Source: Leisingera sp. ANG59
GTDB lineage: Bacteria > Pseudomonadota > Alphaproteobacteria > Rhodobacterales > Rhodobacteraceae
Direction: 5' to 3'
Length of the DNA: 64,000 nt
Assembly (NCBI RefSeq): GCF_013317235.1
Contig: NZ_WLCM01000002.1
Location: forward strand, 1-64,000
In this document: in pieces, positions 4,581 to 27,899 of the stretch
Layout: every line of letters starts with the position of its first letter
Position numbering within the stretch: the first letter of the stretch is position 1
Position numbers and translations under genes: made by a program
Notes under the pieces: generated by a model
Told to the model about the DNA's origin: nothing
The model's database searches: none
What the model saw: the letters and a program-made list of their open reading frames with translations, nothing else

Positions 4581-5327
4581 TCAAAGCCGCCCGGCCACCG
4601 CCCGCAGCAGCCGTTTGCGGGTTTCCGGGATCGCGCCGATTTCCAGGCCGGTGAACACGTGCAGCGTGCTCATCTGCCGGTCAACCACCGCATGATCGCT
4701 GACCCAGCCGCCCATGATCAGATATGTCCGCAACAGCGGCGGCATCATCTGCAAGGCTTTCTTGGCATCCGTGTCCTGCGGCGGCTCAGCAGTAAAACGC
4801 ACCACCTCAGGCGCCTTTATGCCAGGCCGCCACTGCGCCGGCGCCAGATGCCGCTGCCGCAGCAGCGCCAGTACCTCTGTGTAAGGCGCGGCAGCGGTGC
4901 CCGCAAAGGACGAGCAGCCAAACAGCATCTTCACGCCCAGCCCCTCCACCAGGCCCGTCATCGCCCCCCAGGCGACACGCAGGATGTCTGCATCCTGCCG
5001 CTCCGGATGAATGCAAAAACGGCCCAGTTCGGCCATCCGCCCCTCAAAAGCCTGCAATGATGCCAGCTCATAGAATTGCGCCGCATAGCTCTGCGCCAGC
5101 TGACCGCCGCTTTCCAGCAGCAGCAGCCGGAAGCAGCAAACCAGCGTGCCGCCGGCTTTCTCCTCCACCAGGACGTGGGAACACAGGCTGTCATAAGGAT
5201 CGCTGTCCGTGCCGCCGGTCCGGAAGCACAGAGTCCGCAGGGATTGCGCCGCCGCCACGTCCGCCGCCCCGGCGGCCAGCCGGGCGCGGTAGCGCCCCCT
5301 GCTCAGCAAAATCTCAGGTTCCGCCAC
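4581..5327 (-). CDS. olsB: L-ornithine N-alpha-acyltransferase (ornithine lipid synthesis)
   Basis: A 248-residue GNAT-like acyltransferase. MAELGRFCIHPERQ and the C-terminal MPPLLRTYLIMGGWVSDHAV are hallmarks of the OlsB/autoinducer-synthase-like acyltransferase family. OlsB transfers a 3-hydroxyacyl chain from ACP to ornithine, giving lyso-ornithine lipid at the inner membrane; OlsA then adds the second chain. No olsA is seen nearby. The start is GTG with GGAGG 6 bases upstream; an out-of-frame ATG overlaps it. The specific substrate rests on family similarity, and a related hemolysin-like acyltransferase cannot be wholly excluded. Confidence 0.75.
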   Translation of the reverse strand: MAEPEILLSRGRYRARLAAGAADVAAAQSLRTLCFRTGGTDSDPYDSLCSHVLVEEKAGGTLVCCFRLLLLESGGQLAQSYAAQFYELASLQAFEGRMAELGRFCIHPERQDADILRVAWGAMTGLVEGLGVKMLFGCSSFAGTAAAPYTEVLALLRQRHLAPAQWRPGIKAPEVVRFTAEPPQDTDAKKALQMMPPLLRTYLIMGGWVSDHAVVDRQMSTLHVFTGLEIGAIPETRKRLLRAVAGRL

Positions 5328-23617: not shown

Positions 23618-23941
23618 ATGCAACTGCCCCCGAAAGTCACCGACCGCGCTTTTGCCCGGCTGGCCGAGATCGGCGCTGCGGATCAGGGCCAGGCGCTGCG
23701 GGTTGCGGTGGAGGGCGGCGGCTGCTCCGGCTTCCAGTACGAGATCGCGCTGGATGAGGCCAAGGAGGATGATCTGGTGCTCGAGGGCCAAGGCGAAAAG
23801 GTGGTGGTCGACAGCGTCTCCCTGCCGTTCCTGGAAAACGCGGTGATCGACTTCACAGAAGAACTGATCGGCGCCCGCTTCACCATCGAGAACCCCAACG
23901 CCACCTCCAGCTGCGGCTGCGGCACCTCGTTCTCGATCTGA
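23618..23941 (+). CDS. erpA: IscA/ErpA-type iron-sulfur cluster carrier
   Basis: A 107-residue A-type carrier (HesB/IscA fold) with the three conserved cysteines: Cys36 in GGGCSGFQ, and Cys99 and Cys101 in SCGCGTSF. These bind a [2Fe-2S] or [4Fe-4S] cluster for transfer to apo-enzymes. No isc or suf genes are adjacent, which favours an ErpA-like standalone carrier over IscA or SufA, although the symbol is not certain. GGAGAAACACG precedes the ATG. It is divergent from dgt, a pairing typical of Rhodobacteraceae. Confidence 0.85.
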   Translation: MQLPPKVTDRAFARLAEIGAADQGQALRVAVEGGGCSGFQYEIALDEAKEDDLVLEGQGEKVVVDSVSLPFLENAVIDFTEELIGARFTIENPNATSSCGCGTSFSI

Positions 23942-24049: not shown

Positions 24050-24967
24050 CTAAGGGTCGGTCTGCAGCCGCGCGGCACTGCGCAAGCGCGGCATCGCCGG
24101 GGCAAACTGGTCCCACACCAGGTAAAGGCCAGAGGCAACCACGATGGCACCGCCGATGTAGGTGGAGGCCGGCGGGAACTCCCCGAAGAACACCGCGCCG
24201 ATGACCGCCATCCAGATGAACTGCAAGTTCATCAGCGGGGTGACGGCATAGGAGGCCAAGAGCCGCAGCGCCACCACCAAGAGCCAGCGCGCCCCGAACA
24301 GGAGGAACGCATAGGCGGCCGCCCAGCCCGCATCCGCCAGCGGCATCGGCACCCAGACAAAGGGCAGCGCCAGCAGCATCGCGCCGCACAGCGTCAGGTT
24401 CGGATAGAACACCTGCGCCAGCGCGTTGCTTTCATGACGGCCGATAAACCGCGCCATGGTCATCGAAAACGTGCCGGACACCACCGCGCCGAAAGCAATC
24501 AGATGCCCCCAGGCTGAATGCGCCCCTCCATCGTAATGGGGCAGCAGGAACAGCACCCCTGCGAAGCCTGCCATCAGGGCGATCCAGGCCGCCGGGCGCA
24601 CCGGCTCCTTCAGCACCAGCCCGGACATCGCGCCCGCCAGCAGCGGCATCAGGCCGATGAACACAAACACCTCGGCAAAGGGCAGCAGGCGGAAGGCATA
24701 GAAGAAACAGACCGCAGCGATCAGCGTCGCCGCCGAGCGCAGCGCCATCGCCCGCGGGCAAGCCGTGCGGAAGCCGCCGCGCTGCCCGGGCAGCCGGTCC
24801 GCCAGCAGGCAGAAGCCCGCCACCATGGCGCCCGACAGCGCATAAAGCTGCGCCGCCGCATACTGGCCCGCCAGCAGCTTGGTGATCCCGTCAGCTGAGG
24901 CGATCAGGCCGGTATAGGCCACCACCAACAGCGCCCCGCCCAAGGCCTGGTTGCGTGAACTGCCCAT
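24050..24967 (-). CDS. EamA-family (DMT) transporter, third gene of the repeat-protein locus
   Basis: 305 residues from the ATG at 24967. That ATG overlaps the stop of the upstream 353-residue gene by one base (TGATG), so the two are translationally coupled. About ten membrane helices form two EamA repeats; LLPFAEVFVFIGLMPLLAGAM and LMNLQFIWMAVIGAVFFGE mark the repeat ends. EamA proteins mostly export amino acids, metabolites or precursors. The coupling implies that cargo and partner protein are functionally linked. Which molecule moves is unknown; peptide export by this family would be unusual. Confidence 0.8.
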   Translation of the reverse strand: MGSSRNQALGGALLVVAYTGLIASADGITKLLAGQYAAAQLYALSGAMVAGFCLLADRLPGQRGGFRTACPRAMALRSAATLIAAVCFFYAFRLLPFAEVFVFIGLMPLLAGAMSGLVLKEPVRPAAWIALMAGFAGVLFLLPHYDGGAHSAWGHLIAFGAVVSGTFSMTMARFIGRHESNALAQVFYPNLTLCGAMLLALPFVWVPMPLADAGWAAAYAFLLFGARWLLVVALRLLASYAVTPLMNLQFIWMAVIGAVFFGEFPPASTYIGGAIVVASGLYLVWDQFAPAMPRLRSAARLQTDP

Positions 24968-26028
24968 CACGCAGCCCCCGCGCTGCCCGCGCGGGCAAAT
25001 CCTTCGAAGAAACCCGCAAACCCGGCGCAGCTGCGCTCTGCTGCGCAAAGCAGCCCGTGCTCCTCCTCGTTCAGCATCGCCTCGGCCCGCGCTTTGACCG
25101 CGCCCCAGCCGGACCGGCCTGTTCCGGCCTCGAAAACGGCTTCCGAAAGACTTTTCAAAATGCTCCCCCCCCGCAGCGCCGACACATGCACGCCCCCTGC
25201 GGGTACTGTCTGCCGGAACGCCGGGCGCCCGGACAGGATCATGAGCCAGTTAACGACAAAATACTCGTGATAAGAATCATGCGATCCGCGCAACTCTCGC
25301 TCTGATAGAGTAAAGGCGGAAACCTGCCTGTCAAGCCAGCCCTCCCAGGCGGCGGGCGGCTTCTGCCCCGCATAGCGCAGCGCGATGCAGATCTCGGCCA
25401 GCAGATCAGCGTTCTGATCAAGGAAGGCCACCAGGCCCGCAAATTCCAGGCTGGTAAGCGCCGCCTGCGGCAGCTGCGGATCACGGCGGCCGTACTCCGA
25501 CAGGTAAAAGACGATGTGGGTCAGCTCATACGCGGCTTTTTTATTCGGGATCGCAAAGGTTTGCGGGCGCGAGATGAAGGCGCGCAGCCGGTCGTCCAGC
25601 CCGTCGTCGCGCAGGACCGCGCCGCGCCGTGCCAGCAGGCGGCGGGCCTCGGCCCGCTGCAGGTCCGACAGCTCCGCCTGCGCCAGCTCTTCCCGTTCGA
25701 TCCATGCGGCCAGCTGCGCCCCGGTGCCGCCGGGCAGGCCCAGGTCCTCCAGATCCAGGCAGATTGACAGGATGAAACGGTAATACTGGCGGAAGAAGCT
25801 GATATGCCGCGCCGCACCGTCATAGAACCCCTGCAGCGGCGCCAGGGCCTCAGCGGCAACATCCGCCCCGGTGCATTCCAGAATGTTCAGAAGCTCGGCG
25901 TTTTCCTTGAGCCAGAACACGTCTTCCTGGGTGCGCCGGTGCGCGGCGAAACCGCCGATCAGCGCGGCATGCGCAGCCGCCCGGGACTGGCGGGCGGCGG
26001 GAGAGAAGAAGGGGATGATCTGAGCCAT
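24967..26028 (-). CDS. Unrecognised 353-residue helical protein, partner of the FSSGS repeat protein
   Basis: I do not recognise this family. The start ATG at 26028 has a strong AGGAGG 6 bases upstream. The protein lacks a signal peptide and clear membrane helices and looks all-alpha: Leu/Ala-rich amphipathic helices through most of the length. Polar and aromatic motifs that could form an active or binding site are FFRQYYRF (78-85), YELTHIVFYLSEYG (167-180, His171) and SYHEYFVVNW (252-261). Five cysteines are scattered without a zinc or Fe-S spacing. No nucleotide-binding, radical-SAM or protease motif is visible. It lies between the repeat protein and the transporter, which suggests that it binds, modifies or processes one of them. 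Confidence 0.7.
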   Translation of the reverse strand: MAQIIPFFSPAARQSRAAAHAALIGGFAAHRRTQEDVFWLKENAELLNILECTGADVAAEALAPLQGFYDGAARHISFFRQYYRFILSICLDLEDLGLPGGTGAQLAAWIEREELAQAELSDLQRAEARRLLARRGAVLRDDGLDDRLRAFISRPQTFAIPNKKAAYELTHIVFYLSEYGRRDPQLPQAALTSLEFAGLVAFLDQNADLLAEICIALRYAGQKPPAAWEGWLDRQVSAFTLSERELRGSHDSYHEYFVVNWLMILSGRPAFRQTVPAGGVHVSALRGGSILKSLSEAVFEAGTGRSGWGAVKARAEAMLNEEEHGLLCAAERSCAGFAGFFEGFARAGSAGAA

Positions 26029-26062
26029 GGAAACCTCCTGCGGATAGATGCGGCGCGGCTAG

Positions 26063-26117
26063 GGCGGCCCCGTATCCGGGACCGCCAAAAGTCAGGGGCC
26101 GGGAAGAAGACCGGCCC
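26063..26117 (-). promoter_or_regulatory. Two hairpins between the repeat gene and its partner gene
   Basis: One imperfect hairpin (26063-26072 with 26077-26086, 9 of 10 pairs) and one 7-bp hairpin (26096-26102 with 26111-26117) lie in the 97-base gap. Such structures commonly stabilise or partly terminate the upstream message, which would let the repeat protein be made in excess of the partner. This is inference from position. Confidence 0.35.
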
Positions 26118-26125
26118 GCTCCCGG

Positions 26126-26731
26126 TCAGCTGCCCGAGGAGAACAGCCGGGTTGCATCGCCGTCGCTGATGCGCGCTTCTGCCGCCGGAGCGGAGCCGGA
26201 GGAGAACAGATGCGCGCCCTCGCCCGCGCCAGTCTCAGCCGCGGCTGCCGGGGCCGAGCCGGAGGAGAACATTTCCACCCCCTCGCCCGCGCCGGTTCCG
26301 GCCTGCGCAGAAGGAGCCGAGCCTGACGAGAACATTTCCGTCAGACCGCCGGAAGCAACCTCAGATTGAGTTGCGGGCGCGGAACCGGAAGAGAACATCT
26401 GCACCAGATCGCCCCCGGAGGTCTCTGCCCGTGCCGCCGGAGCCGAGCCGGACGAGAACATTTCCACCAGGTCTCCAGCCGCCGTTTCGCTGCGGGCCGC
26501 CGGGGCCGAGCCGCTGGAGAACAGCCCGGTTTCACCGCCTGCCCAGCTGTACGCCATCTGCGGCATGGAGCCCGAGGAGAACAGTGAAACGCCTTCCCCA
26601 GATGACAGATCCGCAGTCCATTCGGGGGCAGAGCCGGAGGAGAACATCTCTGTTGCATCACCTTCAAACAGGCTGGCGCCTGCGGCCGGGCGGGTTGCAC
26701 GGATGGTCTGGATTTTACGCTGAGCAGTCAT
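26126..26731 (-). CDS. FSSGS tandem-repeat protein, possible multi-core peptide precursor
   Basis: 201 residues from the ATG at 26731. A GTG 84 bases upstream is an alternative start with no better ribosome binding site. The first 20 residues are basic (MTAQRKIQTIRATRPAAGAS) and resemble a leader rather than a secretion signal. Then nine units follow with F of FSSGS at residues 30, 51, 71, 92, 113, 134, 155, 176 and 197 (spacing 21, once 20). FSSGS is invariant, Met or Leu always precedes it, and Pro follows in all eight non-terminal units (AP seven times, MP once). Linkers are acidic and variable (for example AGDLVE, AGEGVE). The protein stops right after the ninth FSSGS. There is no cysteine. 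The function is unknown. Confidence 0.8.
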   Translation of the reverse strand: MTAQRKIQTIRATRPAAGASLFEGDATEMFSSGSAPEWTADLSSGEGVSLFSSGSMPQMAYSWAGGETGLFSSGSAPAARSETAAGDLVEMFSSGSAPAARAETSGGDLVQMFSSGSAPATQSEVASGGLTEMFSSGSAPSAQAGTGAGEGVEMFSSGSAPAAAAETGAGEGAHLFSSGSAPAAEARISDGDATRLFSSGS

Positions 26732-27092
26732 GTTGGAACCCCATTCATTAAGGACAAAAGGCTCCTTGACGCTGGCACGGGTGCCGCGCAGCGCAAACAA
26801 AAAATGCAATTTCACATTGTATTTTGTATCTTCAATTACTTTAACTTCAAGCTGCTATTTTTTGCGCAATTTCAATTATTTCAATTCATCCACAGGATAT
26901 TCACCGCGTTACTCACACGCATATTATTGCAAAATATTTAAAATCAACCTGAGGGTTACTTTTCACCCATGCAAAACGCCAGCGGTCCGCAGCGGCACAA
27001 GTGATTCGCGATTCGCGCTCCGGGCTTGCCCCGGGGCGCTGATTCAGCGATAGATCGGCCCCGAATAAAGCAATCTGGGCCGGAGGCAAGCC
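26732..27092. other. AT-rich divergent regulatory region
   Basis: The gap between the repeat gene and xthA. About 26800-26945 is strikingly A+T-rich against a GC-rich chromosome, with repeated TTCAATT words (26831, 26871, 26880) and the palindrome TTGCGCAA (26862-26869). On the minus strand, TTGAAG (26850-26845) and TACAAA 16 bases further form a weak promoter for the repeat gene. In alphaproteobacteria such AT-rich tracts are often bound by MucR/Ros-type proteins; that is inference. The xthA side has GGAGG before its start. Confidence 0.5.
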
Positions 27093-27899
27093 ATGAAAAT
27101 CGCCACTTTTAACATCAATGGCATCAAGGCCCGCGCCCAGGCGCTGCCGGACTGGCTGGACGAGGCGCAGCCCGACGTGGTTCTGCTGCAGGAAATCAAG
27201 TCGGTGGATGAAGCGTTTCCGCGCGAGATCTTCGAGGAGCGCGGCTACAACGTCGAAACCCACGGGCAGAAAAGCTTCAACGGCGTGGCGATCCTGTCCA
27301 AGCTGCCGCTGGAAGACGTGTCGCGCGGGCTGCCGGGCGATGACAGCGACGAACAGGCGCGCTGGATCGAGGCGACGGTGGTGGGCAAACAGGCGATCCG
27401 GATCTGCGGCCTGTACCTGCCCAACGGCAACCCGGTGGAACTGGAGGCGGACGGCAGCCCGGTGGCGGGCGGCAAATACGCCTATAAACTGGCCTGGATG
27501 GAGCGGCTGAAGGCCCGGGCCGAGGCGCTGCTGGCCGAGGAGATGCCCGCGCTGATGGCCGGTGATTACAACATCATCCCGCAGGCCGAGGACGCCAAAC
27601 GGCCCGAGGCCTGGGTGGAGGACGCGCTGCACCGCCCGGAAAGCCGTGCTGCGTTTCAGCGGATTGTCAACCTGGGCTTCACCGAGGCCTTCCGCGCCCG
27701 CCACCAGGGGCCGGGGCATTATTCCTTCTGGGACTACCAGGCCGGCGCCTGGAACCGCGACGACGGCATCCGCATCGACCATTTCCTGCTGACGCCGCAG
27801 GCGGCGGACCTGCTGCGCGACTGCCAGATCGACAAGGACGTGCGCGGCCGCGAGAAGCCGTCCGACCACGTTCCGGTCTGGGTGGACCTGGACATCTGA
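27093..27899 (+). CDS. xthA: Exodeoxyribonuclease III
   Basis: A 268-residue AP endonuclease/exonuclease of the EEP fold. Motifs in order are KIATFNINGIKAR at the start, LLQEIKS with the metal-binding Glu, GLYLPNGNP, LMAGDYNIIPQ with catalytic Asp/Asn, IRIDHFLLT and the terminal SDHVPVWVDL. XthA cuts DNA at abasic sites and trims 3' ends in base-excision repair. GGAGG precedes the ATG. It is divergent from the FSSGS locus and is probably unrelated to it. Confidence 0.94.
   Translation: MKIATFNINGIKARAQALPDWLDEAQPDVVLLQEIKSVDEAFPREIFEERGYNVETHGQKSFNGVAILSKLPLEDVSRGLPGDDSDEQARWIEATVVGKQAIRICGLYLPNGNPVELEADGSPVAGGKYAYKLAWMERLKARAEALLAEEMPALMAGDYNIIPQAEDAKRPEAWVEDALHRPESRAAFQRIVNLGFTEAFRARHQGPGHYSFWDYQAGAWNRDDGIRIDHFLLTPQAADLLRDCQIDKDVRGREKPSDHVPVWVDLDI

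Follow-up and report, generated by a model that had tools for sequence, protein, structure and literature searches.

Three genes, all on the minus strand, make up the locus and encode a repeat protein, a protein of the Pfam family DUF6902 and an EamA transporter (Table 1); they lie in the window, by which we mean the whole 64,000-nt stretch of Leisingera sp. ANG59 DNA that was analysed. The original prediction saw nine FSSGS units of about 21 residues in a 201-residue protein, and reading the sequence bears this out: each unit carries one FSSGS, the eight spacings are 20 or 21 residues, and the unit reads G-[DEG]-x-[VTA]-x-[ML] followed by FSSGS and then by AP or MP, except at the C-terminus, where FSSGS forms the last five residues. 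The nine cores are written in differing synonymous codons and thus do not stem from a fresh DNA duplication. The predicted basic, leader-like N-terminus is a real segment, short and beginning with MTAQRK, and similar starts are common in relatives; as the leader pattern used was loose and matched 54 of 101 precursors, we make no strong claim about a leader. The strong ribosome binding site predicted for the 353-residue protein is present as AGGAGG five bases before the ATG. The transporter ATG (24967–24965) does overlap the preceding stop, with one base in common with the partner's TGA, and has an alternative start in a GTG at 24970. The codons of the repeat-protein gene run from 26731 to 26129, with the stop at 26128–26126.

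Table 1. Features of the three-gene locus and its flanks, in window coordinates.
Feature	Coordinates	Strand	Evidence
Putative multi-core precursor, 201 aa	26126..26731	-	Read from sequence; matched by precursor profile A4
DUF6902 protein, 353 aa, proposed peptide maturase	24967..26028	-	PF21843 E 1.7e-142; PF21836 (DUF6895) E 8.6e-22
EamA transporter, proposed exporter	24050..24967	-	PF00892 E 3.9e-12
Shine-Dalgarno AGGAGG before DUF6902	26034..26039	-	Read from sequence
erpA-like Fe-S biosynthesis protein, flank of usual site, outside system	23618..23941	+	PF01521; synteny
Exonuclease III-like xth, opposite flank of usual site, outside system	27093..27899	+	PF03372; synteny

The repeat protein has no Pfam match over the cut-off and no NCBIfam match at E up to 1. 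As none of the three cassette proteins matched PADLOC at E up to 1, a role in anti-phage defence was rejected. Further neighbours in the window are ordinary, among them an HD-domain dGTPase-like protein, an arginyl-tRNA synthetase, a FAD-binding oxidoreductase and a DksA-like protein.

Distribution and genomic site of the cassette

DUF6902 was found in 108 of 394 Rhodobacteraceae genomes, or 107 of 393 genera, and we read 107 loci with flanks of up to 5 kb plus the window. At 105 of the 108 a unit-bearing precursor stands just upstream of DUF6902 on the same strand, with a median gap of 57 bp (101 measured); this count includes L119, L126 and L163, whose arrays are partly masked by N. No precursor was seen at L167, L189 or L190, the last being a cut gene at the end of a 4.6 kb contig. 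A precursor adjoining its putative dedicated enzyme, as looked for in a RiPP locus, is thus found at 105 of 108 loci.

The original prediction tied the repeat protein to its partner, and the contrary case, a repeat protein without a partner, was sought in 286 DUF6902-negative genomes of the family and seen in none. A three-unit precursor profile (A4) matched 102 of 394 family genomes, all of them DUF6902-positive, and none of the 286 negatives; since 44 of these loci went into building it, the 102 positives are partly circular and the 286 negatives are not. The DUF6902 and profile surveys each drew 394 family genomes, and the two draws agree in the members compared. Six DUF6902 genomes had no profile match, namely the three lacking a precursor and L184, L186 and L188, where one was read by eye. 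In a smaller sample of 61 genomes, DUF6902 exceeded its cut-off in 24 and the window precursor found a match in 25. The extra genome (G056), DUF6902-negative and from another family, gave a weak match (E 4.8e-4) that falls in a long, unrelated reading frame devoid of FSSGS units. Finally, we looked at 80 of 388 relatives of DUF6902. The closest named ones are from Leisingera (identity up to 93%), and a precursor was flagged in 75 of the 80; units are visible by eye at L220, L229, L230 and L257, and L246 is masked by N. Among the carriers that bear a name are Leisingera, Roseovarius, Shimia and a strain of Ruegeria pomeroyi.

As a rule the cassette is flanked by xth on one side and by erpA-dgt-argS on the other; of the 108 loci, 99 have xth upstream, and 95 each have erpA and dgt downstream, several loci stopping at contig edges. 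The exporter part of the original prediction holds less firmly, as EamA was seen downstream of DUF6902 in 79 loci and not in the other 29; at 21 of these, DUF6902 is followed by erpA within 107 bp. Where EamA is present, its first in-frame start often gives an overlap of 4 bases with the DUF6902 stop. All 20 DUF6902-negative genomes inspected have erpA, with dgt in 19 and xth in 17 within about 1.5 kb; none has EamA within about 1.5 kb of erpA. EamA thus travels with the cassette but can be done without, as in the 21 loci where erpA closely follows DUF6902.

The same gene order of precursor, DUF6902 (E 2.3e-102) and EamA occurs in G1002, a genome from a different class of the same phylum; there the cores are FGCYT, LGCYT and YGCYT, and the surrounding 12 kb showed no other neighbour known from the window. 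DUF6902 is present in three of four genomes sampled from the family of G1002; a second one, G1200, has cores FGCYA, YGCYN and FGCYK plus EamA, and the locus of the third, G1199, stops short of the precursor position. With the gene order kept and both cores and neighbours changed outside the family, the cassette appears to be a portable module. Spread by plasmids was rejected, since neither the window DUF6902 nor one protein of the related DUF6895 type had a match among 72,556 plasmids.

Core peptides within and between precursors

Core statistics cover 101 of the 108 loci; omitted were the three with N-masked arrays, the three at which no precursor was read, and L178, whose precursor was recognised only afterwards. 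Mean core pair identity was 0.954 within precursors vs 0.518 between loci, the former being raised because units, collected by a regular expression, were counted only if at least two letters agreed with the majority core, and depressed by a few off-register matches (e.g. at L095, L104, L124 and L127). All counted cores were identical in 68 of the 101 precursors, and on average 0.91 of the copies equalled the majority core. The core changes between genera, with 46 different majority cores in the 101 loci (L174 assigned by hand): FSSGS in 22, FTSWS in 12, FTSGS in 7, and others that include FPSWS, FTNWC, FITSC, FCSAS, MMCCS, YIAGL and STSSF. Position 1 is Phe in 93 and position 3 Ser in 85; Ser and Thr abound at positions 2, 3 and 5, Cys occurs in several cores, and identity is variable at positions 2, 4 and 5.

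Where copies match the majority core exactly, synonymous differences separate 4636 of 11495 codon pairs (40%). For the 82 precursors that hold four or more exact cores, pair identity in the spacer (positions -14 to -7) is 0.25–0.38, and the Gly at -6 is identical in 0.97 of pairs, a value partly favoured by the unit pattern. A constant core beside a divergent spacer, with synonymous changes in the core codons, argues for selection acting on the peptide and against recent copying. Taken together, the arrays combine the conserved recognition sequence (Gly at -6) and the variable core, constant within loci and switched between them, that are looked for in RiPP precursors.

Precursors hold 2–20 cores (median 6) as counted by the unit pattern, which missed some units (e.g. 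at L099 and L118) and took in one of two precursors at L183; only two or three units are present at L168, L171, L186, L188, L355 and L362. The protein ends on a core in 58 of 101 precursors (L092 set by hand). When cores from 98 loci were given three coarse labels by position 4 only (Trp, Gly, other), core class changed 22 times on the DUF6902 tree vs a shuffled mean of 42.1, and 0 of 200 shuffles was as low. Core class thus tracks DUF6902 kinship, a pattern that shared descent alone could also give. In Ruegeria pomeroyi SZCCDBG043, five FSTSC cores are flanked by a first and a last FSSGS.

DUF6902 and its DUF6895 relatives

The partner had been called unrecognised. Pfam does recognise it, as a full-length DUF6902 (PF21843; 475 bits vs a cut-off of 27), but the family has no assigned function, and to that extent the description stands. 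Residues 27–231 independently match DUF6895 (PF21836; 78.3 bits vs a cut-off of 23.8), as do 33 of 34 diverse DUF6902 members on their own (E up to 0.01), and hhalign of 57 DUF6902 against four DUF6895 sequences gave a probability of 94.1% over 176 columns. The two are separate Pfam families (351 vs 289 positions) but homologous, with invariant His, Asp/Glu and Tyr-His motifs common to both. In DUF6902 two His and several Asp/Glu are conserved, the conserved residues (window numbering) being H171, E178, D208, E212, D251, Y253, H254 and others. The four DUF6895 proteins share Y206, H210, F213, D217, G219, D250, D252, E256, Y314, H315 and others (L289 numbering); paired by eye on the hhalign alignment, the counterparts of DUF6895 invariants in the window DUF6902 are Y167, H171, F174, E178, G180, D208, E212, Y253 and H254. 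No other Pfam family and no NCBIfam family matched DUF6902 at E up to 1.

The predicted structure of DUF6902 is nearly all-helical, with a mean pLDDT of 90.7. None of the Foldseek matches in PDB was as good as E 0.001; the top one (probability 0.96, E 0.16) was the complement C4d fragment, an alpha/alpha barrel. With no significant match, kinship to such barrels (1hzf, 7b2m) was set aside as a mere hint, and a sequence search for relatives with solved structures returned none at E up to 10. The name DUF6902 is absent from the literature searched, which covers few subscription papers or bioRxiv preprints; within that coverage no function is named for it, and none of the titles and abstracts listed deals with such a system. 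Most of the matches listed for FSSGS, FTSWS, FTSGS and FTSGL were skin-graft acronyms, and none of those listed concerned peptides of this kind.

DUF6895 is sparse: with DUF6902 loci counted in, samples of 190, 398 and 258 genomes gave matches (E up to 0.001) in 7, 13 and 8, respectively. We inspected ten loci that exceed the DUF6895 cut-off without exceeding that of DUF6902. Small precursor-like ORFs lie directly upstream in four of them (L289, L290, L291 and L278): L289 has two precursor-like paralogues, one ending in LVGPWFVLAGDQT, L290 has two units, GPWYIYKE and GPWFVLKE, and L291 also has two, DWTFVSPNYVYKG and DWTFISHNYVYKG. None was seen at the other six (L292 and L356–L360). At L359 and L360, from two genomes of one genus, a Peptidase_M55 (D-aminopeptidase) is fused to a C-terminal DUF6895 domain, with E values for the two domains of 8.9e-41 and 1.1e-8, and of 5.2e-43 and 4.7e-9, respectively. 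Furthermore, the title of Shi et al. (ACS Catal. 2026), as cited in PMC13352647, describes a DUF6895 member as an epimerase in lasso-peptide modification.

Proposed pathway and alternatives

To judge from its sequences, the cassette is best read as a multi-core RiPP system whose candidate maturase family lacks a named function in the literature searched. Co-occurrence, core switching and enzyme kinship all lend good support to the RiPP-like precursor reading of the original prediction, and DUF6902 is very probably the maturase of the precursor. In the pathway we favour, which is rather probable as a whole, each pentapeptide core, FSSGS here, would have its own upstream recognition element, G-D/E-x-V/T-x-M/L/A; DUF6902 would bind these elements and modify each core, a host protease encoded outside the cassette would free short peptides, and the coupled EamA would export them in most lineages. 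Our best guess for the reaction, to which we give an even chance, is L-to-D epimerisation of at least one core residue by acid/base chemistry through the conserved His and Asp/Glu; it draws on those residues, on the epimerase title of the DUF6895 study and on the D-aminopeptidase fusion. Peptide release and export through EamA are more doubtful. Somewhat speculatively, roseobacters and some other proteobacteria may harbor a new RiPP class, in which helical DUF6902/DUF6895 epimerases make secreted D-amino-acid peptides from tandem pentapeptides with two or three genes and with lineage-wide core swaps. If the favoured pathway is right, 107 of the 393 genera sampled from the family, roughly one in four, would make unseen short modified peptides from two or three genes. 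DUF6902 would gain a function and a tie to an epimerase family that was named only recently, and the 46 core variants found in nature, together with their matching enzymes, could serve studies of substrate specificity and of the concerted evolution of tandem cores.

Ser, Thr and Cys are residues targeted by many RiPP enzymes, and their abundance in the cores (Ser/Thr at positions 2, 3 and 5, Cys in several) would suit the same architecture with a different DUF6902 reaction, such as cyclisation, dehydration, oxidation or cleavage. The conserved His, Asp, Glu and Cys of DUF6902 could bind metal, and an alpha/alpha-barrel fold ranked first for the helical model, if without significance. Such a reaction is nevertheless rather unlikely in our estimate: DUF6902 matched no known modifying-enzyme family in Pfam or NCBIfam at E up to 1, the variable positions 2, 4 and 5 are ill-suited to an obvious fixed side-chain cross-link, and both the D-aminopeptidase fusion and the epimerase title cited in PMC13352647 speak for epimerisation. 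We hold it improbable that the repeat protein is instead a structural or scaffold protein, e.g. a beta-solenoid, to which DUF6902 would bind through FSSGS as docking motif. The regular spacing of 20–21 residues fits such a protein, and AlphaFold gave the chief result in its favour, a weak beta-repeat with two strands per unit (pTM 0.60). However, the pLDDT of that model is a low 61.1, repeated sequence induces false solenoids in structure prediction, and relatives make do with two or three units only. Moreover, a docking motif should stay the same between genera, whereas here the core switches and the Gly six residues upstream stays; constancy within a precursor combined with switching between genera thus favours cores over mere docking sites.

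FxSxx-COOH peptides (FxsA/FxsB) carry the motif of their name at the C-terminus, as do many cassette precursors, including that of the window with its terminal FSSGS. Membership in this radical-SAM family is hardly credible: a search of the window's genome for FxsB (TIGR04269) gave no match with E up to 0.001, precursor and DUF6902 have no NCBIfam match at E up to 1, and the cassettes differ in their many repeats and in cores that break the motif (MMCCS, YIAGL, STSSF and MPTSN). The absence of TIGR04269 also speaks against FxsB acting in trans in this genome, an unrelated radical-SAM enzyme in trans being the remaining exception.

Returning to a multi-core precursor with an epimerising DUF6902, several known systems offer comparisons. 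The B protease/RRE and C cyclase genes of a lasso cluster were looked for next to the cassette, and none of 15 window proteins scanned with Pfam matched a transglutaminase, PqqD-like or asparagine-synthetase family; where the reported DUF6895 epimerase, as far as its title in PMC13352647 tells, deals with a lasso precursor, DUF6902 is proposed to act on tandem pentapeptide units. According to PMC10406935, the lasso epimerase MslH epimerises a residue of a ribosomal peptide by acid/base chemistry with two His/Asp pairs, much as proposed for DUF6902, but has a metal-dependent, calcineurin-like fold, in contrast to the nearly all-helical DUF6902 model; MslH is absent among the 50 PDB matches listed for that model. 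The closing comparison concerns microviridins. Their enzyme is an ATP-grasp type cyclase. Multi-core microviridin precursors (PMC5934393) likewise hold several cores served by one enzyme, whereas here DUF6902 would serve as many as 20 pentapeptide cores, every one of them preceded by a recognition element.

Putative precursors and ORFs at DUF6895 and DUF6902 loci

Aromatic cores, e.g. GPWFVL and DWTFVSPNYVYKG, occur in the small precursor-like proteins found at four DUF6895 loci that lack DUF6902 over cut-off (L278 and L289–L291); the three of these four proteins that were scanned gave no Pfam match over cut-off and none in NCBIfam. An unannotated ORF in L289 yielded zero matches in Pfam and NCBIfam searches (E up to 1), and may encode a second enzyme. 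In the DUF6902 locus L183, the cores differ between the two tandem precursors (FTSGS and FGSSC).

Coordinates and strands of features at related loci
Feature	Position	Strand	Context
Small precursor-like protein	L289:7104-7703	+	directly 5' of DUF6895 gene
Small precursor-like protein	L290:8437-8868	-	directly 5' of DUF6895 gene
Small precursor-like protein	L291:7200-7685	+	directly 5' of DUF6895 gene
Small precursor-like protein	L278:8962-9198	-	directly 5' of DUF6895 gene
Unannotated ORF, up to 364 aa	L289:8482-9576	+	overlaps DUF6895 gene end
Tandem precursors (two)	L183:4249-4509 and 4630-4884	+	5' of single DUF6902 gene
Peptidase_M55 (D-aminopeptidase)-DUF6895 fusion	L359:5484-7175	+	
Peptidase_M55 (D-aminopeptidase)-DUF6895 fusion	L360:6302-8128	-	

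Fusions with Peptidase_M55

The two fusion loci possibly represent a further peptide pathway with D-residues. An ATP-grasp gene lies directly 5' of the fusion in L359.

Sequence around the cassette and erpA

Read from the sequence, an A/T-rich stretch (window 26750-26960) in otherwise G+C-rich surroundings lies 5' of the precursor gene and may contain a promoter or regulator site. Additional material separates DUF6902/EamA from erpA in the DUF6902 locus L143 (DUF6902-erpA distance 2.9 kb), and erpA from xth in the DUF6902-negative loci L298 and L301-L303. Since erpA is thus sometimes parted from its neighbours, the site may be open to insertions. The erpA-xth distance is 0.5-1.1 kb in several DUF6902-negative genomes.
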